From a virus: a stretch of DNA of 26,004 bases. A model generated the notes under the pieces. The model saw only the letters and a list, made by a program, of their open reading frames with translations. It did not search any database and was not told where the DNA came from. Where the stretch lies: IMG/VR virus record IMGVR_UViG_3300017786_000116, positions 1 through 26,004 of that record; one strand, given 5' to 3'. Positions 362 to 22,933 of this stretch are shown here, in pieces. How positions within the stretch are numbered: position 1 is the stretch's first letter; every line of letters begins with the position of its first letter. The position numbers and the translations under genes were made by a program.

Positions 362-371
362 ATTACACTAT
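362..371 (-). promoter_or_regulatory. AGTGTAA-type promoter motif upstream of the tape measure gene
   Basis: The minus strand reads ATAGTGTAAT here, with 10 nt between the AGTGTAAT core and the ATG at 351. It is one of ten exact AGTGTAA copies in the window, all intergenic. A promoter role is inferred; the motif itself is seen directly. Confidence 0.6.
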
Positions 372-389
372 TTTATCGGCATTTCTTAA

Positions 390-1361
390 TCAAAGTCCAT
401 GCATCTCAACCATATCTTTCATATTTAATGAGCCACCCTTCTTTTTTATTGCATCTCCTAGCGTGATGGCGTTTTGATCTTTATCTTTTAAGTGAGCAAT
501 ATCATCCTTATTGGCTCCAAAATAAGTCGTAGCATCTGATTCTCCTGCGCTTTTGCCTTCTTTTTCTGTTTTTTGGCTATTATAGAAATCTATCAATAGG
601 TCTGGATCCTTTGCAATATGATCTGGTATATCCTTTTGAGAGTTTTTGAAAATATTTAAAAAGCTTCTCGAGTAGCTTATCATCTTCAATTGAAATGCTG
701 TCAAATTTTTTAAAGGTTCTCCAAACATATTAATAACATCTTCGGAATAAGGCATGTATGGGCCAAAAAAGGGAGACAACACAGCCTTCGATATGTTCCC
801 GTCATTCATTCTGTTGAAGAACTGGCCCTCTAAATCTGCGAGCTCTTTGGCTGTTTCAATGTCTTGATAATCTAAGTCGTCAAATGGAGATGTCTTAAAT
901 TCCTCATCTAAAAATAAAAGACTTTCAAAAAAATCTTTATTGACTTTTCTTTCTGCGTATTTTTCTGCCGTAAGCCCAACAAGTTTCTCCCTTTCAAAAG
1001 ATAGTTTGTTTAGTTTGCTAATTTCTAAATCTATTAGCTTTGAGTGTTCTTTTCTTTTTGATGGTAATACAATTTTAGATAAAGAGGTTTTTAAATTTTC
1101 TATAAATTTCTTTTTATCTTGTATCTCTTTTTCAGATTCGTCATCCCACATGTCATCCTCAATTAGCATTTTTAAAATACTTTTTTCGGCCAACAAGCCT
1201 CTTTCTTCGGCTTCAGCTATATATAGTTTTCGTTTACCTAGTATTTTTCTTGTATCTAATTGATGAAAGTGCTTAATATAAATTGGACCTAAACTAGAAT
1301 TCAAAACACTAAAACCTTCAAAAACCTCAACAATGATGTCGGCTAATTCATCGTTATCCAC
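390..1361 (-). CDS. Unknown protein, candidate second tail assembly chaperone
   Basis: This is a 323-residue, charged, mostly helical protein that I do not recognise by motif. The candidate start is GTG at 1361, which overlaps the end of the 245-residue gene by 8 bp in the +1 frame. No ATG in this frame lies near the overlap. The C-terminal third is Lys/Asp-rich (KSAGESDATTYFGANKDD). The case for a tail assembly chaperone is positional: it is the last gene before the tape measure gene and overlaps the previous gene, as the G/GT pair does in lambda-like tails. No -1 slippery heptamer is visible, so translation by reinitiation is the simplest reading. The CDS is well supported by length and codon quality; the function is only inferred. 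Confidence 0.6.
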   Translation of the reverse strand: MDNDELADIIVEVFEGFSVLNSSLGPIYIKHFHQLDTRKILGKRKLYIAEAEERGLLAEKSILKMLIEDDMWDDESEKEIQDKKKFIENLKTSLSKIVLPSKRKEHSKLIDLEISKLNKLSFEREKLVGLTAEKYAERKVNKDFFESLLFLDEEFKTSPFDDLDYQDIETAKELADLEGQFFNRMNDGNISKAVLSPFFGPYMPYSEDVINMFGEPLKNLTAFQLKMISYSRSFLNIFKNSQKDIPDHIAKDPDLLIDFYNSQKTEKEGKSAGESDATTYFGANKDDIAHLKDKDQNAITLGDAIKKKGGSLNMKDMVEMHGL

Positions 1362-2091
1362 CCTCTTGTTGCTTTAAAAATTCTTCTATATCTTTTTCGC
1401 TTGATTGATTGTTGTAAAACCAATAAGACACAACAAGCATTAGTTTGTTTAAGGCTTCTTTTTCAAAGTCTTCGCCATCTTCATCCTTCTCATATAAATT
1501 ATTAAGTTGATCCTCATATATAAGTCCATTAAAAAAGCTTTTTTCTTCACCCTCTTCAATGATTACGCCAAGCTGTACAGCGTACCACAATAACATTGAC
1601 CTTTCAGCCCTGGCGTCAGCAGTATGTTCGTATACACTCTGAACAGACATTTCTACGTCAATTAAATTTTTTCTAATTTGGACAAGTTCTAGTTCTAATT
1701 CTTCTATTTCTTTTTTATTTTTTTTCTTATCTGTCGCAGATAGCATTTGAATCTTGTTTGTGATTTCATTGCTTCTTTGAAGTTTTCTAAGAGTATCCTT
1801 AGTCTCTTCTTCGGTTAGGCTCCCCCCAGTGTCAGCATATTTTTTTACAAGCATATCCTTTGTAACAATACCCTTTTTGATATTCTTACTAAGTTCGATC
1901 GCGTACTGAGCCTCAGCTTCATCAACAATACGGCGGCTTGGCTTTTTAATTACAAATTCAACTGGAGTTTTAACCGTCTTGTTTTGCAAGATAGTTTCTG
2001 TTTCACCAGTTTCTTTATTTTTGCGGTTAACCTCTACCTGCTTTTTTTCGCTCTTGTTTACCTGAAATTTATAAATATACTTTGTTTTCAT
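1354..2091 (-). CDS. Unknown coiled-coil protein, candidate first tail assembly chaperone
   Basis: The 245-residue protein has an N terminus of alternating charged and hydrophobic residues (MKTKYIYKFQVNKSEKKQVE). The middle is a long charged helix around residues 95-150 (KIQMLSATDKKKNKKEIEEL), probably a coiled coil. The acidic C terminus ends EEFLKQQEGG. No catalytic or metal-binding motif is seen. It lies 4 bp after the 96-residue gene and overlaps the following GTG-started gene. With the tape measure gene downstream, the pair fits the place of tail assembly chaperones, which coat the tape measure protein before the tube polymerises. This is inference from order. There is no clear Shine-Dalgarno; the leader before ATG 2091 is AT-rich. 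Confidence 0.6.
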   Translation of the reverse strand: MKTKYIYKFQVNKSEKKQVEVNRKNKETGETETILQNKTVKTPVEFVIKKPSRRIVDEAEAQYAIELSKNIKKGIVTKDMLVKKYADTGGSLTEEETKDTLRKLQRSNEITNKIQMLSATDKKKNKKEIEELELELVQIRKNLIDVEMSVQSVYEHTADARAERSMLLWYAVQLGVIIEEGEEKSFFNGLIYEDQLNNLYEKDEDGEDFEKEALNKLMLVVSYWFYNNQSSEKDIEEFLKQQEGG

Positions 2092-2095
2092 GATT

Positions 2096-2386
2096 TTAAT
2101 TTTTAAATCTAAATTCTACTGTTAGATTTTCAACTTCATTATTATAATCCCTCAATACAGAATTTCCATTATCTAAAACCCTTTTTCTGTAGGCTTGAAA
2201 ATGGTCTTCATCAAAATAATCAGCCATTTCAATAATGCTGTGATATTCTTTCGGCAGGTTATCATATAACTTTCCAAAGTTAATTTCGTGGTGAGACTGC
2301 AAGTCCTCCAGAGTGTTCAAAAAAGATTTGAACAGAAAACGGATATAGTAATCCGACCTATCATTTAAAAAATCCTGAGCTTTCAT
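2096..2386 (-). CDS. Small hypothetical protein opening the minus-strand tail operon
   Basis: The 96-residue protein is rich in Tyr, Phe, Asp and Asn (MKAQDFLNDRSDYYIRFLFK) and looks like a small helical fold. It has no signal peptide, membrane segment or metal motif. The sequence AAGGA sits directly before ATG 2386, and a minus-strand TGTGTAAA at 2405-2412 lies 18 nt upstream. It is therefore probably the first gene of the operon running through the two chaperone candidates towards the tape measure gene. It is divergent from the neck genes starting at 2432. A small tail-assembly or tail-completion role is possible from location only. Confidence 0.6.
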   Translation of the reverse strand: MKAQDFLNDRSDYYIRFLFKSFLNTLEDLQSHHEINFGKLYDNLPKEYHSIIEMADYFDEDHFQAYRKRVLDNGNSVLRDYNNEVENLTVEFRFKN

Positions 2387-2404
2387 TCCTTATTCCCAGC
2401 ATTA

Positions 2405-2424
2405 TTTACACAAAAAAGTGTAAA
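2405..2424. promoter_or_regulatory. Palindromic divergent promoter element TTTACAC-A6-GTGTAAA
   Basis: A perfect 7-bp inverted repeat (2405-2411 and 2418-2424) separated by six A residues puts one GTGTAAA copy on each strand. The plus copy AGTGTAAA at 2417-2424 ends 7 nt before ATG 2432. The minus copy TGTGTAAA at 2405-2412 ends 18 nt before ATG 2386. This is best read as two back-to-back late promoters sharing an A-tract. An operator for a dimeric regulator is the alternative. Confidence 0.6.
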
Positions 2425-2431
2425 AGTAGAC

Positions 2432-3498: not shown

Positions 3499-3499
3499 T

Positions 3500-3507
3500 A
3501 GTGTAAA
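3500..3507 (+). promoter_or_regulatory. AGTGTAA-type promoter motif before the 286-residue gene
   Basis: The sequence AATAGTGTAAATA overlaps the end of the previous gene, and the core AGTGTAAA ends exactly 7 nt before ATG 3515. It shows that this gene and the tail-tube gene can be transcribed separately from the two upstream genes. Confidence 0.62.
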
Positions 3508-3514
3508 TACCTCT

Positions 3515-4375
3515 ATGAAACCGCAATATCACCACGAATTAATGACCAGCTTTCTCTTGTGGTTTGATCACGAGCTGCTTCAAAAGGGTGAAGCCTATTC
3601 AAATAAGACTGGAACACTCTTTTCAAAATCAGATAGCAGGGTGCCAAGTTCTTGGACGCCGCTTCAAAGCAACTACAAACAATGGGTTAACGATTCTTCG
3701 GTAACTGGCGAAGTAAACCCAATTATTGCTAATCCAAACTCAATCTTAAATGCTGGTTCTCAATTAAATAGGTCAGAATATATTTATGATTATGAAAATG
3801 GAAGAGTTTTGCACACTGGTGCGGGCGAAGCCGCCAACGTAACAGGAACTTTTGCCGTAAAAGATTTTAATATATACCTGACTAACGATACAGAAGAAGA
3901 CTTAATCATAGAAAATAAATTCACATTGAATAGCAGATATGGAACACCCACTATAAAAGGCTTAGAGCCTTACGATCAAATGGTTCCAGCTATATTCTTA
4001 AACTGCGAGTATATGAGAAATGAGGGCTTTGCCTTTGGGGGAGAAGATAAAACAAACAATTCTATTAAGGCTGTTGTTCTCGCTGAAAACGAATATCAAT
4101 TAGATGGTTCCTTGTCTATCTTCGCAGACTCTGTCAGAAAATCTTTTGCAAAAATACCCTTTTCTTCCCACCCCTCAACGGAATATGGCGACGTAAAAAA
4201 CGGCTCTTATAGTTATTCATCCCTAAGGGACACATACCTTCAAAGCAACCCATATTTCATTGACGACGTCACCGTTTCTAAACTTTCACAAAAACCACAA
4301 TCCTCCCTGCCTGGCGACATAAAAGTCGGGTTCATTGATTTTGAGGTATCTACAGTAAGATATCCTAGATCATAA
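3515..4375 (+). CDS. Virion-type protein, unknown; positional tail terminator candidate
   Basis: The 286-residue protein begins MKPQYHHELMTSFLLWFDHE, a short amphipathic helix, then becomes beta-rich with many Asn, Ser and Tyr residues (YDYENGRVLHTGAG, TGTFAVKDFNIYLTND). The C terminus (GDIKVGFIDFEVSTVRYPRS) looks like paired beta strands. There are no catalytic, transmembrane or signal features. It lies between the neck candidates and the tail-tube gene, where the tail terminator (tail completion) gene is usual, but it is larger than typical terminators. It could instead be a tail-sheath-associated or collar protein. It has its own AGTGTAA promoter and there is no terminator before the next gene, 42 bp downstream. 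Confidence 0.5.
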   Translation: MKPQYHHELMTSFLLWFDHELLQKGEAYSNKTGTLFSKSDSRVPSSWTPLQSNYKQWVNDSSVTGEVNPIIANPNSILNAGSQLNRSEYIYDYENGRVLHTGAGEAANVTGTFAVKDFNIYLTNDTEEDLIIENKFTLNSRYGTPTIKGLEPYDQMVPAIFLNCEYMRNEGFAFGGEDKTNNSIKAVVLAENEYQLDGSLSIFADSVRKSFAKIPFSSHPSTEYGDVKNGSYSYSSLRDTYLQSNPYFIDDVTVSKLSQKPQSSLPGDIKVGFIDFEVSTVRYPRS

Positions 4376-4395
4376 TTTCACAATCAAACAAATAA

Positions 4396-4408
4396 ACTGT
4401 AAACAATA
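4396..4408 (+). promoter_or_regulatory. ACTGTAAACAATA promoter variant before the main tail-tube gene
   Basis: This 13-mer ends 9 nt before ATG 4418, with 14 nt from the ACTGTAAA core. The identical 13-mer recurs on the minus strand at 9848-9860, before an internal start in the protease-scaffold ORF. Sharing between two genes of abundant structural proteins suggests a strong subclass of late promoter. Confidence 0.6.
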
Positions 4409-4417
4409 TAAAATATC

Positions 4418-5812: not shown

Positions 5813-5856
5813 TACTTTAGGGTGGAGCGAATAGCTAAGAAGCCCTTCTAATTTAC

Positions 5857-5885
5857 AAAACCCCCTCATTCGAGGGGGTTTTTTT
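5857..5885 (+). terminator. Rho-independent terminator after the tail-tube gene
   Basis: A CCCCCTC/GAGGGGG stem with an ATTC loop is flanked by AAAA on the left and seven T on the right. It ends the plus-strand block 2432-5812. The A/T flanks extend the stem and give a weaker U-tract on the minus strand, so it may also stop the converging minus-strand operon that ends at 5955. The remaining bases of the 142-bp gap hold no recognisable gene. Confidence 0.88.
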
Positions 5886-6395: not shown

Positions 6396-6396
6396 T

Positions 6397-6663
6397 TTAA
6401 GTATTATCTAAAATATTTTTAATTAAGTCCGTCTTTCGTCTTGGGCTATCAATACCCAGTCTCGAACATATTGCTTTTAGTTCTGACGTGCCTTTTGTTC
6501 TCAAGTCCGACTCAGAATATTTAGGTTTTGTTGGTGTGGGCTCAACAGCAACAGGCTGTTTTGCTGGTTTAGCAATCTTTTTTTTAGCTTTCTTGGCAGC
6601 CTTTTTCTTGGCTGGTCTTTCTTTGCCGTCAGCTATGATTAAGTCGTTTAGTATGTCATCCAT
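6397..6663 (-). CDS. Small SAP-like domain protein with a lysine/alanine-rich linker
   Basis: The 88-residue form starts MDDILNDLIIADGKER. A histone-H1-like basic linker rich in Lys, Ala and Pro follows. The C-terminal ~35 residues (SELKAICSRLGIDSPRRKTD then LIKNIL) match the helix-loop-helix of SAP or Rho-N-like nucleic-acid-binding domains. An upstream ATG at 6672 would add three residues (MLC), but that codon overlaps the TGTGTAAT promoter motif at 6671-6678. ATG 6663 lies exactly 7 nt from the motif, as at four other genes, so I prefer it. The phrase ADGKER and the SAP-like end are shared with the next-upstream gene, so the two are probably paralogues. A role in contacting DNA in the head or at the vertex is inferred. 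Confidence 0.68.
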   Translation of the reverse strand: MDDILNDLIIADGKERPAKKKAAKKAKKKIAKPAKQPVAVEPTPTKPKYSESDLRTKGTSELKAICSRLGIDSPRRKTDLIKNILDNT

Positions 6664-6670
6664 ACATAAC

Positions 6671-6678
6671 ATTACACA
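6671..6678 (-). promoter_or_regulatory. Promoter motif variant TGTGTAAT before the small SAP gene
   Basis: This variant differs from AGTGTAAT at its first base and is preceded on the minus strand by a T-run. It ends 7 nt before ATG 6663. The exact 7-nt spacing is the main reason to accept it. Confidence 0.45.
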
Positions 6679-7371: not shown

Positions 7372-8484
7372 TTAGACGATAACTCCAACAAGAGCACGAT
7401 CGTCAAGAACGATGCGGCCTTCTTCGAGTGAACCGAAGTAACCGATCTTGCTTTGACGGATGCTGTATTGGTCGTCAGCGATCAAGTTGAACTCACCACC
7501 GCTTTCGCTGTCAACAGCTACTGGGCGGATTAGAGACTCACGGCTACGATCGATACCGACAACGATTTCGTCGGCGTCTGAAGTTGTTCCTTTATCGAAG
7601 CTAGAACCGATTTCGTTGCCGAAGACGGTGTTGAACTTCTGGCCGACACCAAGCTCATTAAGCTCGATAACATTGATACCGTAGAACTCAGGAGCGCCAG
7701 CGGCCTTGTAAGCTTCTTCAGCGATAACGTTAGCAGTCTGAACTGGGTTGTTAAGAGCTGTTGCAGTTCCCATTGGTGAAGCTTTAGTGTTGATTGGGTT
7801 GTAAGCAATCGCACGAAGCTCTTCAACGATTTCAGGAGAACAGAGGATATCTGTTACACCGCGTCCTCGACCAGCCTCAGGAGTACCTCCAACAAAAGAG
7901 CTTGAGATTCTCTTTGCACGAGTCATAAGAGCATTAAGATCAGCAAGAGTAAAGCGATCTGCAGTTCCTGCATTAATTGCGTGAGGAAGGCTGTTAGTAG
8001 TAGCGTTAGCAAGTGCCTTCATAACAACATTAGCAGAGATGCTATTTTGCTTAAGAAGAATTTCTTGCGCAACACGAGTCATTGTCTTAGCGACAACATC
8101 CATGCGGCTCTTAGCAGCATAACGACGATCAAAGCTTACAGCTGAATCGAGGCTATATGTAGCGATCTTAAGCTCAGCAGATGTTGGGTGCACTTCCGAA
8201 GTTGGAAGGCCACCAGCACGGCTTTGGCTATAAACTTGAACATAATCTTCATCAGAAACGTCGAAGTATAGATCCAACGGAATCGAAGGATTGTCATCAG
8301 CGTTATATTGAAGAGTAGTGAAGAGGTTGGACAATACGGGAGCATTGTTTACAACTTCAGCGAGGACAGGTCCGATAAACTCAGCAAGGGCTGTTTGAGC
8401 TTCATAAGCAACATCACGGTTGCGAGAAGCCATTGCCTTTACAAGTTCGACTTGTTCTGGAGTATTTTTTAAAGTGATTTTCAT
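7372..8484 (-). CDS. Major capsid protein (HK97-fold type)
   Basis: The 370-residue length and sequence style fit HK97-fold major capsid proteins. There is an N-terminal helix (EQVELVKAMASRNRDVAYEA), an early EFIGPVLAEVVNNAPVLSNL segment, a middle spine-like helix (VAKTMTRVAQEILLKQNSIS), a glycine-rich segment (GGTPEAGRGRGVTDILCSPE) of the A-domain type, and a C-terminal GYFGSLEEGRIVLDDRALVG. The context is decisive: decoration gene and protease-scaffold upstream, a strong terminator downstream. Arg codons are almost all CGT/CGC, against AGA in the minor genes, as expected for a very abundant protein. AAAGGA about 11 nt before ATG 8484 is a plausible ribosome site. The likely mRNA source is the internal promoter at 9848-9860. 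Confidence 0.88.
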   Translation of the reverse strand: MKITLKNTPEQVELVKAMASRNRDVAYEAQTALAEFIGPVLAEVVNNAPVLSNLFTTLQYNADDNPSIPLDLYFDVSDEDYVQVYSQSRAGGLPTSEVHPTSAELKIATYSLDSAVSFDRRYAAKSRMDVVAKTMTRVAQEILLKQNSISANVVMKALANATTNSLPHAINAGTADRFTLADLNALMTRAKRISSSFVGGTPEAGRGRGVTDILCSPEIVEELRAIAYNPINTKASPMGTATALNNPVQTANVIAEEAYKAAGAPEFYGINVIELNELGVGQKFNTVFGNEIGSSFDKGTTSDADEIVVGIDRSRESLIRPVAVDSESGGEFNLIADDQYSIRQSKIGYFGSLEEGRIVLDDRALVGVIV

Positions 8485-11034: not shown

Positions 11035-12431
11035 TATTTGCCTATTTTTATCATATAATAATTTATTTTACTGTCGTCTTTTTGACCGATCGGAAGCGTG
11101 TTTTTCCAAAAAATATCAGAATAAATCCCATCTGTTTTTTCAGAGTGCATGCTGCCCGTTCCAATTATAGTTCCGAAACAGAAAGGATCGGTTGGTTTAC
11201 AAATAGCAATTTTACCCAACTCTCGTGTGAACACTTGATCGGTCCCGTCAATATAATGCAGGCCATCGTAACCATTAATCGGACCATACGAGCTTGAAGT
11301 TTTAATTCCTGAATTTATAACTGACACTCCAGTTTGATGAGCAAATCCATATTTAATACCAAGATTACTCTTTCTACATCCACCAGAATAGCTGTTATAA
11401 CTATCAAGCGTTACTCTTCCGACTGGAGTGAACTCAGACGGGGAATTACTCTGAAGGTTTACGCCGTTAGGGATAAGGTCGCCCACCGCGAGGGTGACAT
11501 CTGTATCATTTAACATACAAAGAATTATAAGATTTCCAGTATCTGCATCGTAAACTCTCAAGTTTCTCCAGTGAGCTTGTGTATAATCATTGCCATCTGA
11601 AGTTCCAAAAATCATAGCAAAGCCCTGGTTATCATTTTGAATAAAAGTGTGATCCTCCCATTCATTATTTTTTGTCTGCGTTGAAAATCCAACATTGCTA
11701 GAACTACTGCCATTGGCTAAGTTAGTTCTTATTAATGTCCCAGCCGTCGTCAAGCAGGAGACTACTACCCTAAATCTCAAATCATTAAAATCCGTTCCGT
11801 CTTTTTTTAAACGGGGGTACAAAGTTTCAGTCACACTCATGATATTTAATCTAAACTCGCCGTCTACACCATCAGTTGAAACCCCGAATGTATCTCCGCC
11901 ATCGTCTTGAGCAATAGCTGCACCATCGAAAGATTCTACATGAAATGTGAAAACACCCTTTGTGGCTACAGGCACTGTTTCGCCTGGTAAAATAGCTTGT
12001 AGTTCTTCCTTCTTCATTTTGTTGTAAAGAAGTTTTTCCCCATTTTCGTCGCCTATCGCGGTAGTATTTAAGGTTATTCCCAGTGGCATATCATAACCCT
12101 CAGTTGGCATTATATTCAATGGGTTTACGGGGTAAGTTTCTGATACAACAAAAGGTAGTGGCCTAGATGTGGAAACTGCTGCATTACCATAACCATTGAA
12201 TCCGTTTTGATTACTTTTTCCTAAAAAGTCTGGATGTTGATAATCTACAATATCTTGATTGAAGTTCCCGTTTTCTATTTTAACAAAAGTTCCAGCGGCT
12301 CCATCGTTTCTTATCTCGGTTTGTGAGTTAAGGTTTGTCGATTCTGAAGCGTACATCGGATGCAAAGAAAAAAGATTAACTACATCCTCTTCTTCGTATG
12401 ATCTAAATGGTAATAATTTTGTGTTTTTCAT
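11034..12431 (-). CDS. Decoration protein paralogue with a large inserted domain (head fibre candidate)
   Basis: The 465-residue protein starts KNTKLLPFRSYEEEDVVNLF and shares GNFNQDIVDYQHPDFLGK, GEKLLYNKMKKEELQAILPG and VPVATKGVFTF with the 205-residue decoration protein. It ends like it with FGTIIGTGSM and YYMIKIGK. Between about residues 178 and 400 it has an insertion absent from the short form: beta-rich and Asn/Gly/Ser-rich, with RFRVVVSCLTTAGTLIRTN and WRNLRVYDADTGNLIILC, like a carbohydrate-binding jelly-roll or fibre tip. I infer a less abundant decoration subunit carrying a surface-exposed adhesin-like domain. Its start overlaps the portal stop (ATGA), tying expression to portal rather than capsid. 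Confidence 0.65.
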   Translation of the reverse strand: MKNTKLLPFRSYEEEDVVNLFSLHPMYASESTNLNSQTEIRNDGAAGTFVKIENGNFNQDIVDYQHPDFLGKSNQNGFNGYGNAAVSTSRPLPFVVSETYPVNPLNIMPTEGYDMPLGITLNTTAIGDENGEKLLYNKMKKEELQAILPGETVPVATKGVFTFHVESFDGAAIAQDDGGDTFGVSTDGVDGEFRLNIMSVTETLYPRLKKDGTDFNDLRFRVVVSCLTTAGTLIRTNLANGSSSSNVGFSTQTKNNEWEDHTFIQNDNQGFAMIFGTSDGNDYTQAHWRNLRVYDADTGNLIILCMLNDTDVTLAVGDLIPNGVNLQSNSPSEFTPVGRVTLDSYNSYSGGCRKSNLGIKYGFAHQTGVSVINSGIKTSSSYGPINGYDGLHYIDGTDQVFTRELGKIAICKPTDPFCFGTIIGTGSMHSEKTDGIYSDIFWKNTLPIGQKDDSKINYYMIKIGK

Positions 12432-14374
12432 TTTGAGTGGTATAAAATTGCTGAAGGATAAATTTCTAACTTATGAGATTCTGAAACTTTAAAGATACCG
12501 TTAAGTGTACCTAGTTTTTCAATTTCACTAAAATCATTTACACAAGAAACTACAGTGTTTTGCCAATTTTCTTTTTCAGAAGAACAGATTACAGATTCAC
12601 AAAGTTTTTCTAACATTGCTTCTTGGTTTTCATCTAACGATTCTGCCCCAAGTTTTTCTAACATTTTTTCCTTAGCAATGGAGCTTAAAGATTCAACTTC
12701 GTATATAGTCCCTTGAATACTTTCCCTCGAAAATTTGTCTCCAGAGCCTTCTGGTCTACCAGGCATTGCCTTCGTAGGTTTTGATGCTTCGTCGGGTTTT
12801 TCTGAATCTTCGCCATCTAATTCCATCATTGGAACGCCGCCAACGACTGGATTAAAGTAACCCTTTTCTCTTTGTTCAACGAACTTCTTTTGAGCTGGCG
12901 CCAATTCTTCTGACAAGGGAAATCTTCCAGTGTGGAATAAATCCATACCTTGTTCCGCTGTCATAATTCCAAGCTCCATAAGTCTCGTGGCGACGCGCAT
13001 AAGCTGAACTTCATCACGCAAATCGATATCTTTAAACTTAACCGTTGGGTATGATCTGAATCCTAAATCTTTAGCTATGCGTCTGATTTCTGGCTGTAAA
13101 AAGTCTTGAATAAAAGCCTCACGAGCTTCCTTCAATCTGTCTAAAAATACACGAGCCTTTATTTGAGCGCCATTATACTTATCATCATTAAGTATTATAT
13201 TCTGAAGGCCTTCTTTAATATCTTTGTTGATCACTTCGTATTTTCCTGGACCGACGACCTTATTAATATCAGGAATAACAAAGTCAGCTTTAGTTGTATA
13301 ATCAGAAACTAAGACTCTGCCCACAGATTCATTTTGAAAAAGTTTTTGCATAGCCATGACGTTATTTGGATTAATTCCGCCCTTGTCTGGCTCTGCCCCC
13401 ATTGTAATCATAAGAATAACATTCTCAACGGTTCTCATGATGGCTTGATCCATCTTTTTCATTTCAAGCTTAGCGTTAATGTCTTCAAGAACAGGATAAC
13501 CAAAAGGAATAGCAAATGGCTCGTAATCTTGCTTCTTATAGAAGCTATATGAAATTTTATCGTTTTTAAGGTTTATCTGAAGGCCGTCCTTGAAATAAGC
13601 TCCGTTCTTGATTTGTTTTCTCACTTCTGGGTCTAGGCCGTCGAAGACAGCTTGATCGTAATCGTTCTTAGGATTAGCTAGCCTTTCCATATCAAACTCG
13701 GAAAGAATTTTTGCATAGGCTCCGTCTTTAGTATTGAACACAGTACTACGCTTTGCTACAATTTCGAAAGGGTTTAAAACAATATATTTTAAAGGAAACT
13801 TGTTTAAAGATGGTCCGTCAGATACGTTTTGAGAAAACTTCTTATAATCATCTAGGCTAAATTTACCATCGACACGATAAAGAAAAACGTTACCACTTCT
13901 GTAGTACTCTCTGAAATATTGATCTTTTAAGTCCCAAATCTTAATTCTGTCTAGCAGTTTCTCGAAAAAATTCCTAGAGGTAGCATTTCCGTCCTCTAAG
14001 TATAGTTCTGCATTGGCAAACTCCGACATCATGTCAATAGTATTTCTAAAAATAGGCACATTTGCGTATGCTTTTTGGCAAAGCTCAATAGCTTCCCTGA
14101 CATTGATTCCATCGGATGAAACTTCGTAAGGAAGAAGCCCTCCTCGAATTTGACTATATTTATTTTTCGGAGTCGTAACAGAAGATTTATTGATCCTCGT
14201 GCTTGTGCTAGAAGATGACATAGAACCAGATCGGCTGTAGGATCCTTCAGAAACATGATATGCTTCTCCCATTGTAGCTGGCTCAACTACTTCTTGGGCC
14301 GCTGATACTTGCGGTGGAACTCTTTTAAATTTATTCCAGTACTCAGATTTTTTCTTATATTGTCTTTTTGGCAT
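12428..14374 (-). CDS. Portal vertex protein
   Basis: The 648-residue length and layout fit T4 gp20-type portal proteins, the dodecameric ring through which DNA is packaged. The N terminus is basic and Ser-rich. The body includes GINVREAIELCQKAYANVPI, the strand YYRSGNVFLYRVDG, and IPFGYPVLEDINAKLEMKKM with the long helix after it. The wing/stem part IGLRSYP-type segment reads AKDLGFRSYPTVKFKDIDLR, followed by GIMTAEQGMDLFHTGRFPL. A Pro/Gly hinge (KAMPGRPEGSGDK) leads to an unusual acidic C-terminal extension of about 110 residues. It lies 57 bp after the large terminase gene, the normal packaging order, and has its own promoter motif. Confidence 0.87.
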   Translation of the reverse strand: MPKRQYKKKSEYWNKFKRVPPQVSAAQEVVEPATMGEAYHVSEGSYSRSGSMSSSSTSTRINKSSVTTPKNKYSQIRGGLLPYEVSSDGINVREAIELCQKAYANVPIFRNTIDMMSEFANAELYLEDGNATSRNFFEKLLDRIKIWDLKDQYFREYYRSGNVFLYRVDGKFSLDDYKKFSQNVSDGPSLNKFPLKYIVLNPFEIVAKRSTVFNTKDGAYAKILSEFDMERLANPKNDYDQAVFDGLDPEVRKQIKNGAYFKDGLQINLKNDKISYSFYKKQDYEPFAIPFGYPVLEDINAKLEMKKMDQAIMRTVENVILMITMGAEPDKGGINPNNVMAMQKLFQNESVGRVLVSDYTTKADFVIPDINKVVGPGKYEVINKDIKEGLQNIILNDDKYNGAQIKARVFLDRLKEAREAFIQDFLQPEIRRIAKDLGFRSYPTVKFKDIDLRDEVQLMRVATRLMELGIMTAEQGMDLFHTGRFPLSEELAPAQKKFVEQREKGYFNPVVGGVPMMELDGEDSEKPDEASKPTKAMPGRPEGSGDKFSRESIQGTIYEVESLSSIAKEKMLEKLGAESLDENQEAMLEKLCESVICSSEKENWQNTVVSCVNDFSEIEKLGTLNGIFKVSESHKLEIYPSAILYHSK

Positions 14375-14391: not shown

Positions 14392-14421
14392 AAAGTTACT
14401 TACACTTTTTAAAAGTTACTT
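14392..14421 (-). promoter_or_regulatory. Portal promoter region: AGTGTAAG motif within a direct repeat
   Basis: The minus-strand motif AGTGTAAG is at 14399-14406, 24 nt from ATG 14374. The 10-mer AAAGTTACTT (plus-strand reading) occurs at 14392-14401 and again at 14412-14421, 20 bp apart, straddling the motif. The repeats could be an operator, or may be part of an AT-rich promoter context. Confidence 0.48.
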
Positions 14422-17196: not shown

Positions 17197-18232
17197 CTTC
17201 AATACCGATACCAAGAACGCGAGCTTTCCAAGCCGCCATGCCCTCTAATTTTTTAGCTTCTTCTCTAATTACTTCCTTTTGCATTTCAGCAATACGAACA
17301 ATATTTTTTCTCTCTTCTTCTTCCTGGAACAACTGGACGATAGCAAGAAACGACGCAGTTTCTTTTTGTTTATTCGCTAATCTTGCTCCACGATCTCCCT
17401 GAAGTTTTTTTGTCAAGTTTTCAATGCGAGTCTCACATTGATGATATTCTGAACTTTTAGCCTTAATAATTTCCGCTAAGCGAACTGTCATTTCATCCTG
17501 GTCGTCGGCACTCTCAAACATGTCATTCAGTTTTTGTAAGTGGCCAGTAATTAACTCAAGATTAATTATTTCTTTGGCGACATTCATGTATAAATTTAAT
17601 TCGTCTGCAGTAAGATCGGGCTTGTCCCAAGTCAATCTAATAAATTCTTGCTCAAACAACTCTTTGTCTCTATGACTCGTATAGTTATTTACAATAGCAA
17701 CAAATCTTGAGTTGTTAAGGTTGACCCTTAGCTTATCACAGCAATGTTTTTGATTTCGAGACATTCTACTTTCTTCCAGCCCGAAACCAGTTGAGTCATT
17801 AATTTTTTTAATAATTCTGGAAACTGCTTGGGGTGCAATGTAGTTACCCGCAGAGTCTTCTCCTCTATCTTTTTCTTGCTCTTTTTCTTCGTTAACTATT
17901 TCATTTACAGCTCTCCACTCCTTGGACAGTCTTGTTATCTTAGTCTTAAATACAATATCTGCTATTTCTGAAGTATTTAACTTATCGTTTTTTAATTCTT
18001 TAATTTTTTCTATTTGACTTTCGGTCAGAGTTACGTCTTCCGTTTTGTCTCTTTTCGTCGTTTTAGCCTTCAAACCATTTTCTGCTAGGAATTTAGTAAC
18101 AGCTCTGCCTTCTTTAGATCTTCCATCAAGGGCATCATCCTCAAAAACAATCTTAGTAATGTTTAGAATATTTGCTTCTTCTTGAAATATTTCTAAAATT
18201 CTATCCTTTTGATCTTCGGTTAAATTAATCAT
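17186..18232 (-). CDS. DNA-binding protein with tandem HTH-like repeats, candidate small terminase
   Basis: The 348-residue protein has two related N-terminal units. Residues 4-52 run LTEDQKDRILEIFQ ... GRSKEGRAVTKFL and residues 69-113 run LTESQIEKIKELKN ... RLSKEWRAVNEIV. Each looks like a helical DNA-binding unit with a conserved SKE-x-RAV core. The rest is helical, with a long charged coiled coil from about residue 215 to 320. Small terminase subunits commonly combine an N-terminal HTH and a coiled-coil oligomerisation region, and are encoded upstream of terL as here. The length is greater than usual and the nuclease gene lies between. A regulator of late transcription is the alternative, since the sigma gene overlaps it by 4 bp. 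AAGGA precedes the ATG. Confidence 0.6.
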   Translation of the reverse strand: MINLTEDQKDRILEIFQEEANILNITKIVFEDDALDGRSKEGRAVTKFLAENGLKAKTTKRDKTEDVTLTESQIEKIKELKNDKLNTSEIADIVFKTKITRLSKEWRAVNEIVNEEKEQEKDRGEDSAGNYIAPQAVSRIIKKINDSTGFGLEESRMSRNQKHCCDKLRVNLNNSRFVAIVNNYTSHRDKELFEQEFIRLTWDKPDLTADELNLYMNVAKEIINLELITGHLQKLNDMFESADDQDEMTVRLAEIIKAKSSEYHQCETRIENLTKKLQGDRGARLANKQKETASFLAIVQLFQEEEERKNIVRIAEMQKEVIREEAKKLEGMAAWKARVLGIGIEDVL

Positions 18233-18900
18233 ATTATGTCCTTTTCGATAATTATTTGCTTGGCTTTTTGTTGAAAAATTTTTTTAAGATTTTTTATTTG
18301 CTTATAGCCAGCAGATCTTTTCTTTTCGTTAGTTTTGAATCCTAAATACTTTGCAATTTGTTCGTCGGTACTGTTCTCTATGAACATCATTTTAAATGCA
18401 CGAAAATGCCTCTTACTAAGATGAGGTTCCATCTCTGCTGACAATTTTTCTGTCGCAGATTCTAAATTCAAAAAACCATCCTTTTGAGCATTGACTTCAT
18501 TTATATGGCCCTCCATGGTAACAGCGAGTTTTATGTCGTAAGCAGCTTTCTTCTTCATGGACCACTGTTTAAAGTCTTCGCAAGATTCGTTTTGAATTCC
18601 ATTCGCTGTTTTCGAGCAGCCGTCTCCACCGTTATTAAATTTGCATTGCAGACACGGTCTTACATAATTTCCATAATGGTTTCTTAATAAGTTTTTAAAT
18701 TGGTTAGAAACTACCCTACTTAACCAGGGTTCTATAGGTTTTGATTGATCCCACAAATGCCACTTTTTGTAGATGTGAGTCATAATTATTTGTTTTATGT
18801 CATCGTAATCTATATAAGCTACCGCATCCAAATTCCATTTTGCTCTTTTTCTTTCTACCGCCGCATTAATTTCTTTTATCTTATCTTCAAAATCATACAT
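18229..18900 (-). CDS. Late-transcription sigma factor (T4 gp55-like) with a zinc-binding insert
   Basis: The 223-residue protein directs RNA polymerase to late promoters. Residues about 30-80 resemble sigma region 2: YIDYDDIKQIIMTHIYKKWH and EPWLSRVVSNQFKNLLRNHY. A four-Cys insert follows (C83, C86, C94, C106; PCLQC ... GDGC ... ESC), likely a zinc site. Residues about 160-215 resemble a region 4 HTH (HLSKRHFRAFKMMFIENSTD, then EQIAKYLGFKTNEKK). T4 gp55 is the best-known member of this divergent group and reads a single -10-like element, which fits the single AGTGTAA element found here. It overlaps the zinc-ribbon gene (TAATG) and the following gene. Promoter partnership is inferred. Confidence 0.8.
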   Translation of the reverse strand: MYDFEDKIKEINAAVERKRAKWNLDAVAYIDYDDIKQIIMTHIYKKWHLWDQSKPIEPWLSRVVSNQFKNLLRNHYGNYVRPCLQCKFNNGGDGCSKTANGIQNESCEDFKQWSMKKKAAYDIKLAVTMEGHINEVNAQKDGFLNLESATEKLSAEMEPHLSKRHFRAFKMMFIENSTDEQIAKYLGFKTNEKKRSAGYKQIKNLKKIFQQKAKQIIIEKDII

Positions 18901-19223
18901 TATAGGTCATCAATTTTTTTGATAGAAATTTCTCTTCTCTTGGGGCTTGACTTGCCGCCTAAAGAACCTATAGTTTGTTGCATTGAAGCACCAAAATCTT
19001 CAAGCTCGTATTCTAGCTTTGATATATTTGGTATATTGCTGGCGTCAGTGTAGCCCTCAGAATCTTCAGAAGATTTTGAAATCTTGGCTGACGCTTCCGC
19101 GCGCGCGGGTTCAACTTTTTTAGATTCACCACCTTTTAAATTTGCTCCACAACTAGGACAAAAATTTGGAGGATTGAATTTATATTCGAGCTTAGTGCCA
19201 CATTCAAAACAAAATTTATTCAT
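18900..19223 (-). CDS. Zinc-ribbon protein coupled to the late sigma factor
   Basis: The 107-residue protein opens with a zinc ribbon (C5, C8, C22, C25; FCFECGTKLE ... FCPSCGANLKG). A Lys/Glu/Ala/Ser-rich, probably disordered, region follows to about residue 62. A short conserved-looking segment (NISKLEYELEDFGASMQQTI) precedes a basic stretch and the end SIKKIDDL. The stop overlaps the sigma start by one base. Small proteins beside a late sigma factor can be RNA polymerase coactivators, as T4 gp33 is, so a transcription accessory role is plausible but not shown. A generic zinc-ribbon protein with another partner is equally possible. Confidence 0.7.
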   Translation of the reverse strand: MNKFCFECGTKLEYKFNPPNFCPSCGANLKGGESKKVEPARAEASAKISKSSEDSEGYTDASNIPNISKLEYELEDFGASMQQTIGSLGGKSSPKRREISIKKIDDL

Positions 19224-19251
19224 AACTTATATTAAATCAAAAAATATTTTT

Positions 19252-19947: not shown

Positions 19948-19958
19948 TTAAGCTTTTT

Positions 19959-20807
19959 TTATTTTAACAATTCTGTAATAGTCAATGAACCTCTCGCTAA
20001 GTCGCCACCAGCGATAGAAATATTTTCTGAAGTTATTCTTCCATTGATATTGGTTGAAAAAATCTCATTGAGTTTGGAATTTTTTACAGTCATTGATAAA
20101 TTTCCAGGATTTGAACCAGTCAAAGGTACTAGAGCCTGTATGTTATCTCCCCTAATTGAAATATTTTGCTCCGCCGTCACTAGCTCTACAACAGTGGGGT
20201 TATATGATCCAATTTCGTAAACTGGTAAACGATTTGCATTAAATTGATATTGGATTGTTTCAAATACTGAAATATCATTTAAAGGCGATCCACCAAATGT
20301 AGAATAAGCTCCATGCCCGTAATCTGCAAAATTCAAAGCCTCGATAATAGAATCTTCTTCTTCCACAATCTTACCTCCAGCACTAGATATAGTCAGAGGA
20401 TTGTAAATAGCAAAATCACATTGAACTAAAACTGGAGAATAGGGTGCTAGCGTATAAGAGAAAGAAGTAAGAAAAGCTCCACTACCAGATATTCCGCTTG
20501 TGGCGTCACCTAGTCGAAAAGCCGCTCCAGTATCACCTACGTCACCTGTGAAGTCGGTTGGGTTAAATTCTCCAGTGCTTACATAACAAGAAAAAGAAAG
20601 AGAAGAATTAGGGGGCCCAGCAAGATTAAAATTATCTCTAGTTGGGGTTTTTCCCAAAAGCCTTACTGGCGCTATATTTGGCGTATAGTTGAGTTGAACC
20701 TGTTCACAGAACACTCCCGAATTGTTTCCGTCTGTACCATCTGGTAATGTGCTACTATTTACTCCTCCAAAATACAACGGTACGTCCTTATATGATATAT
20801 ATGCCAT
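19959..20807 (-). CDS. Tail-tube-like virion protein (paralogue 3)
   Basis: The 282-residue beta-rich protein has the pattern seen in the other two tail-tube-like proteins. EQVQLNYTPNIAPVRLLGKT comes near the start, then SLSFSCYVSTGEF, then GAFLTSFSYTLAPYSPVLVQ, a second-half strand IQYQFNANRLPVYEIGSYNP with ISIRGDNIQAL, and a final SENISIAGGDLARGSLTITE. It matches in order but not closely in sequence, indicating ancient duplication. Known tails use distinct tube-type subunits for tube, hub and baseplate initiation, so this may be a minor tube or baseplate component. The start follows AGTGTAAT by 7 nt. It heads the operon with phoH and the sigma gene, which is unusual for a tail gene. Confidence 0.58.
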   Translation of the reverse strand: MAYISYKDVPLYFGGVNSSTLPDGTDGNNSGVFCEQVQLNYTPNIAPVRLLGKTPTRDNFNLAGPPNSSLSFSCYVSTGEFNPTDFTGDVGDTGAAFRLGDATSGISGSGAFLTSFSYTLAPYSPVLVQCDFAIYNPLTISSAGGKIVEEEDSIIEALNFADYGHGAYSTFGGSPLNDISVFETIQYQFNANRLPVYEIGSYNPTVVELVTAEQNISIRGDNIQALVPLTGSNPGNLSMTVKNSKLNEIFSTNINGRITSENISIAGGDLARGSLTITELLK

Positions 20808-20814
20808 AAATTTT

Positions 20815-20822
20815 ATTACACT
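20815..20822 (-). promoter_or_regulatory. AGTGTAA-type promoter for the tail-tube paralogue, phoH and sigma operon
   Basis: The minus strand reads AAAAGTGTAATA, and the AGTGTAAT core ends exactly 7 nt before ATG 20807. If the sigma factor at 18229-18900 reads this motif, the operon would be autoregulated. Confidence 0.65.
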
Positions 20823-20859
20823 TTTTTGCTATCTATTGGAATTGGTTTTATAAACGAAG

Positions 20860-20902
20860 AAGCCCCGAAATCCTTATTCTGGACTTCGGGGCTTAAATTT
20901 TT
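20860..20902 (+). terminator. Strong hairpin with U-tract in the divergent intergenic region
   Basis: AAGCCCCGAAATCC (20860-20873) pairs with GGACTTCGGGGCTT (20881-20894) with one mismatch around a 7-nt loop, followed by AAATTTTT. This is an intrinsic terminator in the plus direction. No plus-strand gene ends upstream, so it may stop antisense transcripts, insulate the divergent promoters or end a small RNA. On the minus strand the tract after the stem is only CTTCTTCGTTT. Confidence 0.75.
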
Positions 20903-20953
20903 GTACAAGAGCTAGCGAAACACGCCACGCGATTAAGCTAATGGAACGTGAAA

Positions 20954-20964
20954 AGTGTTACACT
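20954..20964. promoter_or_regulatory. AGTGT-T-ACACT palindrome containing a minus-strand AGTGTAAC
   Basis: The plus strand reads AAGTGTTACACTT, an odd-centred inverted repeat. Its minus strand carries AGTGTAAC (20957-20964), preceded by TATA. No start codon follows within 30 nt. The hairpin lies about 60 nt downstream on that strand, so a short untranslated RNA is conceivable; an operator is the alternative. Confidence 0.45.
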
Positions 20965-21005
20965 TATAATTAATAAAAAAGAAAAAAAAAAATTAAAAAG
21001 GAAAA

Positions 21006-21013
21006 AGTGTAAA
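21006..21013 (+). promoter_or_regulatory. AGTGTAA-type promoter before the 264-residue tail-tube-like gene
   Basis: AAAAAGTGTAAAG follows an A-rich stretch and its core AGTGTAAA ends exactly 7 nt before ATG 21021. No Shine-Dalgarno fits between them. Confidence 0.65.
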
Positions 21014-21020
21014 GTAATTC

Positions 21021-21815
21021 ATGGCAGTAGAAGGATCTCACGAAGAACATGTAATAATAAATGGAACTCTATTGCAGGGGGTTTCAAATACCTCATTTGA
21101 ACAGAATGTAGAAGAACAGCCCGTTTCTATGGTTGGTAAAGATTTTGCTGGCAAAACAACCACAGGGCCGACTCAAGTCACAGCCGCAATCGATAAGTAT
21201 CTTTTGAATAACGACTTTGTAACGACTTTAACGGGACTCACTGATATTTCTGGACAATTCGAATATGGGGATAATCTTCTTGATTTCTCTCAAGCGGTTA
21301 TAAATGGATATGCAGTTTCTACGGCTGTCGGAAGTTTACCAGAAATATCTTTTGACTTATCTATATACGGAAGTTTGAGTGGCGGTGGCACATCAATTAG
21401 ATCGCTAGCATCAGATGAAAGCGCAGTAGAAAATGTTTCTCAATCAGGACTAATTGTTACTTTTGATAAAAATCAAACAAACGCTGTACAATCCTTTAAT
21501 TTTTCTGAAACTTTTAATGTTGTGCCAACGTATGGATTGGGGCAGAAAACGCCAGCAGATATTTCTATTGTCGGCCCCATCGTTCAAGAGGCTAGTATAT
21601 CTATAGAAGTTGAAGATTACGAAGTAGAAGAAACGTTTTCTTTTTTAAGTGGTTCCAAGGATAGATCTAGAAACATTGAGTTAAAGATCAGTGGCGACAA
21701 TGGTATATTAAATACCTTCTCATTGCAAAATGGATGCTTGGCCAGCGAATCTATAGTCTCCAACGCTGGTAATACTACGACAGCTCAGTTGACTTATAGA
21801 GGGTACAGAACTTAG
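21021..21815 (+). CDS. Tail-tube-like virion protein (paralogue 2)
   Basis: The 264-residue beta-rich protein shows the same order of elements as the 464- and 282-residue proteins: NTSFEQNVEEQPVSMVGKDF near the start, VTAAIDKYLLNNDF, then AVINGYAVSTAVGSLPEISF close to the 464-residue protein's NAFLTDYSLEASVGSIPTIS, then VQSFNFSETFNVVPTYGLGQ with ASISIEVEDYE, and a final SESIVSNAGNTTTAQLTYRG. It lacks the Ig-like domain. The likely role is a tube, hub or baseplate-proximal tube subunit. It is a single-gene plus-strand unit with its own promoter motif and a TAG stop, converging on the 329-residue gene. No terminator hairpin is visible in the short gap between them. Confidence 0.6.
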   Translation: MAVEGSHEEHVIINGTLLQGVSNTSFEQNVEEQPVSMVGKDFAGKTTTGPTQVTAAIDKYLLNNDFVTTLTGLTDISGQFEYGDNLLDFSQAVINGYAVSTAVGSLPEISFDLSIYGSLSGGGTSIRSLASDESAVENVSQSGLIVTFDKNQTNAVQSFNFSETFNVVPTYGLGQKTPADISIVGPIVQEASISIEVEDYEVEETFSFLSGSKDRSRNIELKISGDNGILNTFSLQNGCLASESIVSNAGNTTTAQLTYRGYRT

Positions 21816-21895
21816 TAATCAAAAAATGTAAATGATGCAGTTGTTGGTGCGGTATCAGGAGGATAGTCATAATTTATAAAAAACTCCAAAAATAC

Positions 21896-22885
21896 TTAAG
21901 AATCGTAAGTAAAATAAGAAACATCCAATGAAGAAAGGTTAAGAGTAAAGCCTGGGGTAGTATAGGATTCAGTTGACCCGAAAACTGAGGCAAATCCCGC
22001 GTTTGTTGAAGGGTTCCAAGGTGCGTAGGCGTAGTAGGTGAAATGATCTCCACCCCAAGCCCAAGTCCATGAGTTGGGGCTATTACTATTCTGGAGATAA
22101 GCATCAGTATATTTGGGCAGTGCTGTAACTGAATGTCTAGCTTTTGAAACTCTAAGTATGGGGAACGGGGAAGATTCCGCTTGTACGTTAATTACAGCGG
22201 CATTTTGTGGCTGAGATCCTAGATTGTATATAATACCATTTGGATCTTCTGGATAGCCGAAATCGTAAGAAGTATAGCTCACGGATCCATTAGCTCTTTG
22301 AAAGTGGTCTATGTTCTCATAGTTTGGGCCACTCAAATATCCATTACTGAAAGTATGATAGTACCCTCTCATTTTAACAAAATCTTTAAGTCCGTATCCA
22401 ATAAAATTATCAGGGTTAGTGGTTGCTCCGTTATACATAGCTGCAATGAAAACGTTTGTTCCGCCAGAAGTCTTCACCTCGCCAAAAGAACTATTATTAT
22501 ATTCCGCTCTACCTAAATCGTAATTATAATTATCACCTCCAAACCGCGAGTCTTGTGACCTCGTGCTTATTCTTTCTTTTGGTTGCGTTCCGTTTCCAAG
22601 GTCGTCGGCGGTAACGCTCCAATTTCCAGCTAGTCCATTAAACCTGCCATCATCTGCTTCAATAAATGTAGTCGCGCTACCCACCACCTCTATTTTGTAC
22701 AAATTCCAAAATATCTTCATAGCGTTAGCAAGAGAGAGCTTCTTTTCTGCGACGGTAGGCGGGGTCCCTTTTCTCGTCCCTCCTAGGGTCATGTAATCAT
22801 GAGCGCTTGATACATCTACGTTAAACATGGGAAACGGAAATCCGTTTCCCGCTCCTAGCGCTTTGAATGGTGTTGCTATCGGCAT
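21896..22885 (-). CDS. Virion-type protein of unknown function
   Basis: The 329-residue protein begins MPIATPFKALGAGNGFPFPM and is rich in Asn, Gly, Tyr, Ser and Pro, with a middle helix (EKKLSLANAMKIFWNLYKIE) and many aromatic-rich short strands (MRGYYHTFSNGYLSGPNYEN, NSWTWAWGGDHFTYYAYAPW). The composition is that of phage tail-tip, baseplate or fibre proteins. I do not recognise a family. The start follows AGTGTAAA by 8 nt. The frame stays open for 27 further sense codons after the stop, down to a TAA at 21812-21814, and the encoded tail (ending PTTASFTFFDY) resembles this protein's own end (SLDVSYFTYDS). The real C terminus may therefore have been longer, or readthrough may occur. Confidence 0.6.
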   Translation of the reverse strand: MPIATPFKALGAGNGFPFPMFNVDVSSAHDYMTLGGTRKGTPPTVAEKKLSLANAMKIFWNLYKIEVVGSATTFIEADDGRFNGLAGNWSVTADDLGNGTQPKERISTRSQDSRFGGDNYNYDLGRAEYNNSSFGEVKTSGGTNVFIAAMYNGATTNPDNFIGYGLKDFVKMRGYYHTFSNGYLSGPNYENIDHFQRANGSVSYTSYDFGYPEDPNGIIYNLGSQPQNAAVINVQAESSPFPILRVSKARHSVTALPKYTDAYLQNSNSPNSWTWAWGGDHFTYYAYAPWNPSTNAGFASVFGSTESYTTPGFTLNLSSLDVSYFTYDS

Positions 22886-22893
22886 ATCAATTA

Positions 22894-22901
22894 TTTACAC
22901 T
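22894..22901 (-). promoter_or_regulatory. AGTGTAA-type promoter before the 329-residue gene
   Basis: The minus strand reads AAAAAAAAGTGTAAATA; the AGTGTAAA core ends 8 nt before ATG 22885. It lies back to back with the tandem plus-strand motifs at 22917-22933. Confidence 0.63.
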
Positions 22902-22916
22902 TTTTTTTGAGTCCTC

Positions 22917-22933
22917 AGTGTAATTAGTGTAAA
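22917..22933 (+). promoter_or_regulatory. Tandem AGTGTAA motifs before the fibre-like operon
   Basis: AGTGTAAT at 22917-22924 and AGTGTAAA at 22926-22933 are two adjacent copies, 9 bp apart. The second ends 24 nt before ATG 22958, where AAGAAAGAGA provides a possible ribosome site. This is the only tandem pair seen. Confidence 0.6.

Follow-up and report, generated by a model that had tools for sequence, protein, structure and literature searches.

Heptamer sites in the viral window

The window, by which we mean the whole 26,004-base virus record (IMGVR_UViG_3300017786_000116), contains ten exact copies of the heptamer AGTGTAA. An earlier note, made from the letters alone, had proposed this heptamer as a late-promoter-like motif, and the coordinates and strands that it gave for all ten copies are correct. 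Non-coding DNA accounts for about 3.5% of the window, yet every copy lies in it; 0.16 copies would be expected there from an order-1 model built on the non-coding sequence. The window as a whole is expected to hold 3.65 (standard deviation 1.97), and none of 100 dinucleotide-preserving shuffles reached ten. Two sites in which the first base is T (TGTGTAA, both on the minus strand) had been missed. The candidate promoters are listed below, the gap being the number of nucleotides (nt) from the end of the motif to the ATG; gene starts and coding or non-coding calls come from a simple gene finder written for this analysis.

363..369, minus strand: AGTGTAA before gene 1-351, which runs off the window; gap 11 nt
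2406..2412, minus strand: TGTGTAA variant before gene 2096-2386; gap 19 nt
2417..2423, plus strand: AGTGTAA, gap 8 nt to the ATG at 2432; predicted transcription start at the A of this ATG
3500..3506, plus strand: AGTGTAA, gap 8 nt to the ATG at 3515
6672..6678, minus strand: TGTGTAA variant, gap 8 nt if the gene starts at the ATG at 6663 and not at 6672
14400..14406, minus strand: AGTGTAA before gene 12428-14374, which follows the terminase gene; gap 25 nt, with a predicted leader of 17 nt
20816..20822, minus strand: AGTGTAA, gap 8 nt to gene 19959-20807, which opens a same-strand run containing PhoH and the sigma gene
20958..20964, minus strand: AGTGTAA before a predicted small RNA and no protein gene; pyrimidine-purine (YR) step at +8/+9 (C20950/A20949)
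21006..21012, plus strand: AGTGTAA, gap 8 nt to the ATG at 21021
22895..22901, minus strand: AGTGTAA, gap 9 nt to gene 21896-22885
22917..22923, plus strand: AGTGTAA, the first of two tandem copies ahead of gene 22958-24256; gap 34 nt
22926..22932, plus strand: AGTGTAA, the second of the two tandem copies; gap 25 nt to gene 22958-24256, predicted 17-nt leader

The proposed position before the leading gene of a transcription unit fits six of the nine gene-linked sites. The other three (363, 3500 and 14400) follow a same-strand gene at a distance of 16-57 nt and would for that reason be better named internal promoters. The site at 20958, which had been set aside as the sole exception, is 150 nt from the next start and instead precedes the conserved predicted small RNA described below. 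Between 22895 and 22932 three copies of the motif fall within 38 bp, one directed leftward and two rightward in tandem, 9 bp apart.

Enrichment, geometry and initiator signature in two clades

Relatives of the window were collected through its terminase (145 confirmed, 80 kept) and its sigma factor (48), and whole contigs were taken from among them, 17 at first and then three more (G001-G020). The set of 17 contigs on which the inner-clade counts of enrichment, geometry, initiator, -35 element and leading genes rest omits near-identical sequences, namely the window itself (99.9% identical to G011), G015 (99.9% to G007) and G016 (99.9% to G009), as well as G010 (90% identical to G020). A scan of genome contigs yielded three contigs of metagenome-assembled genomes with terminases 61-65% identical, and these led to an outer clade in which at least 600 stretches matched, 80 were kept and 83 loci entered the motif count; the bins of the three contigs are assigned to Flavobacteriaceae, Verrucomicrobiales and one other bacterium. 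Among 50,697 phage records, neither the sigma factor of the window (tblastn, 1e-5) nor two outer-clade sigma factors (0.01) nor the protein encoded at 7372-8484 had a match, and the terminase found only matches of about 25% identity. The lineage is apparently a widespread marine phage group of which no cultured member was found.

In the 17 contigs AGTGTAA occurs 130 times in 69,852 non-coding positions and 70 times in 881,385 coding positions, a 23-fold enrichment. The motif is thus concentrated in intergenic DNA and not, as the earlier note had it, confined there. By z-score it is the top non-coding heptamer (11.58 copies are expected from an order-1 model of the relatives' non-coding DNA), while a ranking by fold alone places two rare GC-rich words above it (20 versus 7 and 20 versus 8). 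The reversed word AATGTGA shows 20 non-coding and 88 coding copies. None of the other words of its composition (210 in all) is as enriched as AGTGTAA (23.3-fold, against a median of 0.75), and this rank rules out chance accumulation in AT-rich intergenic DNA. Part of the non-coding DNA of G002 (22% non-coding) and G018 (13%) may consist of unannotated genes; counting such genes as non-coding should weaken the enrichment and not create it. In the outer clade AGTGTAA again ranks first by z-score, with 167 non-coding and 103 coding copies (52,511 and 800,813 positions, near-identical loci retained).

The enrichment is tied to gene starts, as had been anticipated. AGTGTAA is the most enriched heptamer in the last 25 nt before starts, where it was found in 92 of 681 genes against 1.6 expected (14 of the first 17 relatives taken, de-duplicated by 40-mer). 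The core GTGTAA stands ahead of 182 of 464 leading genes and 27 of 471 operon-internal genes, and in the outer clade ahead of 132 of 329 and 4 of 232, respectively. The proposal that internal operon genes lack the motif is therefore right for most of them, the 27 inner-clade and four outer-clade genes being the exceptions.

Nearly half of the AGTGTAA copies in the 17 contigs (109 of 225) sit 8-12 nt before a start on the same strand; a further 33 lie at 13-60 nt and only one lies nearer than 8 nt. None of 108 copies of the reversed word falls within 8-60 nt of a start. Of the non-coding sites, after de-duplication, 106 point only toward a start, five only away, 24 both ways and 17 neither way. 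The inner clade has a sharp floor of 8 nt in the gap to the ATG, which is also the mode; the earlier note had seen neither this floor nor the leaderless mRNA that it would imply. The floor should not be an artefact of how starts were chosen, because among acceptable ATGs the gene finder favors the one farthest upstream.

A pyrimidine precedes the ATG at every site with a gap of 8 nt (79 of 79 inner, 15 of 15 outer, and 29 of 29 when counted by protein clusters). Closely spaced internal genes without the motif have A (0.49) or T (0.28) just before the ATG. Motif-less genes with 15-100 nt of upstream DNA have T (0.69) or C (0.19), as expected if other promoters also start transcription at the ATG. 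Where the gap is at least 13 nt, 41 of 67 inner-clade sites have a YR step at +8/+9 after the GTGTAA core, compared with 10-39% at other offsets, and averaging by protein cluster (n = 32) gives 0.53 at +8/+9 versus 0.17-0.35 elsewhere. In the window the step falls exactly there at seven of the ten sites (2417, 3500, 14400, 20816, 20958, 21006 and 22926). A YR step held at a fixed distance from the motif is what a start-site mark for RNA polymerase, and not a mark for the ribosome, would leave. A search for a -35 element by position-specific words at 203 sites brought up isolated words spread over many positions but no element shared among them. Taken together, the data support the earlier description of a directional, single -10-like element with no detectable -35 element, often located upstream of structural genes in a phage that encodes a sigma factor. 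The same 203 sites show a weak A/T enrichment at -36..-32, -26..-24 and -16..-12 of the core, in steps of roughly 10 bp that perhaps reflect helical phasing.

A predicted small RNA, a second promoter class and the phage sigma factor

Downstream of the site at 20958 lies the following feature.

20860..20949, minus strand: conserved predicted RNA of about 90 nt, with an intrinsic-terminator-like hairpin at its end and an imperfect T-run in the window

An nhmmer search with this stretch gave 89 matches, of which 30 were counted (E<1e-8 and a differing stretch); 28 are distinct as RNA and 27 were aligned. All 28 keep the promoter core upstream, the base ahead of it being T in 16 and A in 12, and the YR step at +8/+9 is present in 25 of the 30 matches and 23 of the 28 distinct sequences. 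The RNA has a conserved GCTTAATCGCG-like block and, at its 3' end, a GC-rich hairpin followed by a T-run. Consensus folding supports nine pairs, seven of them in the terminator hairpin and four with compensatory changes; the 5' part is conserved in sequence and gave no single fold in the six sequences folded. No consistent open reading frame was found, as 14 of the 30 have none beginning with ATG and the longest has 23 codons. No Rfam family reached its gathering score. All 28 distinct homologues at E<1e-8 are in inner-clade loci, none having been found in the outer-clade loci examined. The most fitting reading of the stretch is a small RNA that has a putative promoter and a terminator of its own, and a conserved terminator-ended RNA behind the motif speaks against a ribosome signal.

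The phages also carry promoters of the sigma70 type. In the 17 contigs, 29 of 60 TTGACA words upstream of starts end exactly 29 nt before the ATG, and the genes concerned have a pyrimidine before the ATG in 25 of 29 cases and a median length of 78 codons. With a spacing of 17 nt and a -10 hexamer, 29 nt from the -35 element is the distance to +1. Genes with sigma70-type promoters, too, would thus begin transcription at the ATG and give leaderless early mRNAs; we label them early because of their promoter type and small products, so that the term is a prediction from sequence. One example is as follows.

L133:140-960, minus strand: candidate early gene with a sigma70-type promoter of TTGACA type

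Among the 464 leading genes, 166 bear GTGTAA alone, 76 bear a suitably spaced -35-like hexamer of TTGA type alone and 16 bear both. In none of four gene classes do Shine-Dalgarno words outnumber their reversals, although AAGGA-type words occur 5-7 nt ahead of the ATG in a small group of internal genes. By eye, several outer-clade genes (L218:741-2606, minus strand) share an upstream CAGAAAAAGCTTT-like block followed by a TATACT-like hexamer about 6 nt before the ATG, perhaps a repeated early promoter.

Motif sites in the window, G001 and G003 precede the presumed tape measure gene, the post-terminase gene, a homologue of the tail L gene and the head of the PhoH/sigma run. Most genes lack annotation, and we call the motif late because structural genes are prominent among those that bear it. 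The DnaB gene has a -35-like hexamer. The only ground for regarding gene 1-351 as the tape measure is how long its homologues are (1,817 and 1,944 codons), and gene 12428-14374, which has no family match, is called portal by position only. Relatives of gene 2096-2386 keep GTGTAA at gaps of 18-24 nt (16 cluster members). The homologue of gene 6397-6672 (minus strand), which is gene 25 of G001, has AGTGTAA at a gap of 8 nt; the leaderless rule suggests, in agreement with this homologue, that the gene in the window starts at the ATG at 6663 rather than at 6672. At about 4396-4402 (plus strand) the window carries ACTGTAAAC, whose CTGTAA ends 15 nt before gene 4418; AACTGT recurs in relatives at gaps of 17-18 nt, and ACTGTAAAC may be a variant promoter or an operator.

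The candidate reader of the motif and its neighbor are encoded in the window as follows.

18229..18900, minus strand: phage sigma factor, candidate reader of the motif; region 2 at about residues 1-78, Cys-rich insert C83..C107, predicted region-4-like domain at about 145-223
18900..19223, minus strand: zinc-ribbon-like protein whose gene lies immediately upstream of that for the sigma factor (Pfam DZR at 25.6 bits, under the cut-off of 27.3); a possible accessory factor

Since the motif heads the PhoH/sigma run, the sigma factor may act on its own operon. Region 2 of the window protein scores just above the Pfam cut-off (PF04542, 24.5 versus 24 bits). We compared two sets, one of 34 sequences (the window's and 33 of 49 others, one of 50 with an unknown residue being omitted) and a mixed one of 30 (the window's, 13 inner-clade and 16 of 18 outer-clade sigma factors, the latter being 27 before reduction at 90%). 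Sigma70_r2 was matched by all 34 at E<=1 and by all 30 at E<=0.1. Region 4 (PF08281) was matched by 15 of the 34 at E<=1 (best 5.6e-4) and by 4 of the 30 at E<=0.1, the window protein having no match. In a structural model with a mean predicted local distance difference test score of 78.7, residues 1-78 superpose on sigma region 2 and residues from about 145 to 223 on region 4; residues 148-220 align with region 4 of SigW at Z 7.2 (2.3-2.4 Å over 63 residues), a Z that is not strong by itself. All Z scores were below 9, and the first model ranked a non-sigma chain on top (Sld7, Z 8.7). Foldseek returned only weak sigma-factor matches (best E 0.014 and 0.0097 in PDB, 0.027 in BFVD); T4 gp55 is not among the matches listed, which excludes nothing. 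Searching PDB sequences with the sigma profile gave either no match or three unrelated ones, the best (7e-6) being a designed repeat protein over the helix-turn-helix-like part. The insert between the two regions contains C83, C86, C95 and C107 in most members. It occurs in two forms, CxxC..C..C in most and a shorter NPCP...TCPIC in a subset of 212 amino acids.

By profile search the sigma factor is single-copy in all six large relatives and absent from T4. The earlier note had called it gp55-like, and membership of the gp55 family is rejected: phrog_234 matches T4 (2.5e-70) and none of the six large relatives at E<=1, and hhalign with gp55 gave a probability of 0.2%. The best PHROG is phrog_1740, matched by all 34 inner members at E<=1 (best 1.6e-6) and by 27 of the mixed 30 at E<=0.1 (best 1.8e-7; the window's own 0.0094). 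This family includes phiEco32 gp36 (1.9e-45), although direct hhalign of the sigma factor with gp36 gave 0.2%. The gp45 clamp family phrog_223 matched T4 and none of the six relatives, whose records may be incomplete. The clamp family PF02916 was likewise matched by none of the six, but its control matched only 1 of 14; the bacterial clamp PF02768 was matched by one of the six at E 0.05 and by none over the cut-off.

A proposed single-element late promoter and its known counterparts

We propose that WWWWAGTGTAAWW, with the core GTGTAA, is the single -10-like element of the late promoters of this lineage. It would be read by the host RNA polymerase core carrying the phage sigma factor (18229-18900), and no sequence-defined contact would be made at -35. 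The transcription start would fall about 9 nt past the GTGTAA core, with a preference for a pyrimidine/purine step. For most genes the starting purine would be the A of the ATG or lie a few bases before it, so that late mRNAs would be leaderless or nearly so. We hold this reading as a whole to be well supported and probable. Enrichment, direction, fixed geometry, the initiator signature, the lack of a detectable -35 element, conservation in two clades and the terminator-ended stretch can be read directly in the sequences; from them we infer a promoter role in the cell, the exact start, the pairing with the sigma factor and late timing. Promoter function of the motif is very likely. Dependence on the phage sigma factor is likely on the basis of its single copy, the precedent in its family and the lack of rivals. 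Leaderless mRNAs are likely for many first genes of the inner clade, and predicted leaders in the outer clade often measure 0-6 nt. The broader idea that promoter and start codon form one unit is favored less firmly, although we lean toward it: early RNAs (TTGACA at 29 nt) and late RNAs (AGTGTAA at 8 nt) would both start at the A of the AUG, most first genes would be leaderless and the late promoter would also drive a small RNA.

Several observations weigh against these proposals. More than a third of the AGTGTAA copies in the 17 contigs (76 of 225) are over 60 nt from a downstream start, 70 copies lie inside coding DNA, and 206 of the 464 leading genes have neither promoter type. RNR has both a sigma70-like and a GTGTAA site, so that the motif is not purely structural. 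In the window the YR step is missing at +8/+9 from three of ten sites (363, 22895 and 22917). Outer-clade sites with a gap of at least 12 nt have it in 29 of 68 cases, hardly above the 28 of 68 at +12/+13, so that this signal is weak there, and outer-clade gaps are mainly spread over 8-14 nt, with ten at 3-6. The modelled sigma factor appears to have a region-4-like domain, the usual reader of a -35 element, yet no such element was seen. Because orthologues are among the sites, most counts lack independence, and the gene starts are those of our own finder. Finally, the terms late and leaderless describe predictions from sequence.

Three other explanations have to be considered. A gap of 8-12 nt and the lack of Shine-Dalgarno enrichment would also suit a translation-initiation signal that replaces the Shine-Dalgarno sequence 8 nt before the ATG. 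Such a signal would not be expected before the terminator-ended stretch behind 20958, which has no consistent open reading frame, nor to be so rare before operon-internal genes, which need translation too, and at inner-clade sites with gaps of at least 13 nt it is the motif, and not the ATG, to which the initiator step keeps a constant distance; we reject this explanation as highly improbable. An undirected operator, at which a phage repressor or activator overlaps promoters of another kind, is rejected on the direction bias of the sites, and operators of any sort seem to us very improbable. The clustering of sites in promoter-like regions, some tandem or divergent (22895/22917/22926 and 20958/21006), would fit them, whereas the excess of sites directed toward starts, the fixed 8-nt floor and the absence of a second promoter element from the 203 sites would not. 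A promoter read by a host sigma factor, either as a variant of the sigma70 -10 element or through an alternative sigma factor, is unlikely, if less so than the other two. GTGTAAWW does occupy a -10-like place and the phages do have sigma70-type promoters; however, sigma70 needs an A that is replaced by the G and T of the motif at -12/-11, the two promoter classes are mostly separate among leading genes, no -35 element accompanies the motif and each of the six large relatives has its single-copy phage sigma factor.

If the motif is a single-element promoter read by the phage sigma factor, a late-promoter code becomes available for a phage group in which no cultured member was found, temporal gene classes could be read from metagenomic contigs and gene starts corrected. 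Were the leaderless reading true, these phages would offer a natural system for leaderless translation across the infection cycle. How a sigma factor that has apparently retained region 4 would read a single-element promoter is a puzzle of mechanism.

Among open-licence PubMed Central papers, the matches listed for AGTGTAA as a phage promoter all look unrelated. T4 late promoters are described in PMC2988020 as consisting of one 8-bp element, TATAAATA, roughly one helical turn ahead of the start, with AT-rich DNA downstream and no -35 element, and the late element of phage Aeh1 is also altered at -13/-12 (PMC2988020). With the start at the A of the ATG, a gap of 8 nt would place TGTAAWWA at -13..-6, like TATAAATA, and the two share the lack of a -35 element; the element here is still not the T4 octamer, as the second octamer base is G and AG precedes. 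T4 late transcription involves gp55, gp33 and gp45, whereas the sigma factor here falls outside the gp55 family and gp45 was not found in the six relatives by a search that matched T4. The lineage further differs from T4 in the DNA polymerase III alpha- and DnaB-type replication genes and the tail L protein encoded by G001. The late promoters of phage 7-11 (GTAAtg-16-aCTA) are read with a phage sigma factor and start at a similar distance, according to PMC8948821, but are bipartite and of other sequence. Those of AR9 and phiKZ (AACA-6N-TA/G; TATG), given in PMC5312081 as short motifs close to the start, are read by a phage-encoded multisubunit RNA polymerase, unlike what we propose. AR9 leaders span 26-491 nt there, and its authors remark that phage transcripts are often leaderless (PMC5312081), so that leaderless phage mRNAs as such are already known.

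The closest precedent is phiEco32, whose gp36-dependent middle and late promoters are reported in PMC8948821 to consist of the single element tAATGTAtA with no -35 element and a start 6-8 bp downstream. Here the YR step lies 8/9 nt after the GTGTAA core, as judged from sequence, and the core AGTGTAAw is similar to AATGTAtA; the exact phiEco32 element is not the one found, AGTGTAAWW being similar and not the same. Gp36 is said to lack region 4 (PMC8948821), in contrast to the predicted region-4-like domain here, and it falls in phrog_1740, the best-matching PHROG of our sigma factor. Motif and sigma family thus point, weakly but independently, to the same precedent. What differs is the distance to the start codon. 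At the six mapped phiEco32 promoters in the gene list of PMC4331800, the gaps from element to ATG are 11, 33, 38, 59, 36 and 39 nt (genes 6, 13, 26, 40, 58 and 68), with Shine-Dalgarno-like words in between by eye; in T4, the 13 starts that have the element, out of 36 checked, show gaps of 14-35 nt, again with Shine-Dalgarno-like words between. The new part is therefore the putative leaderless geometry, with a mode of 8 nt in this lineage against 14-35 nt in T4 and 11-59 nt in phiEco32.

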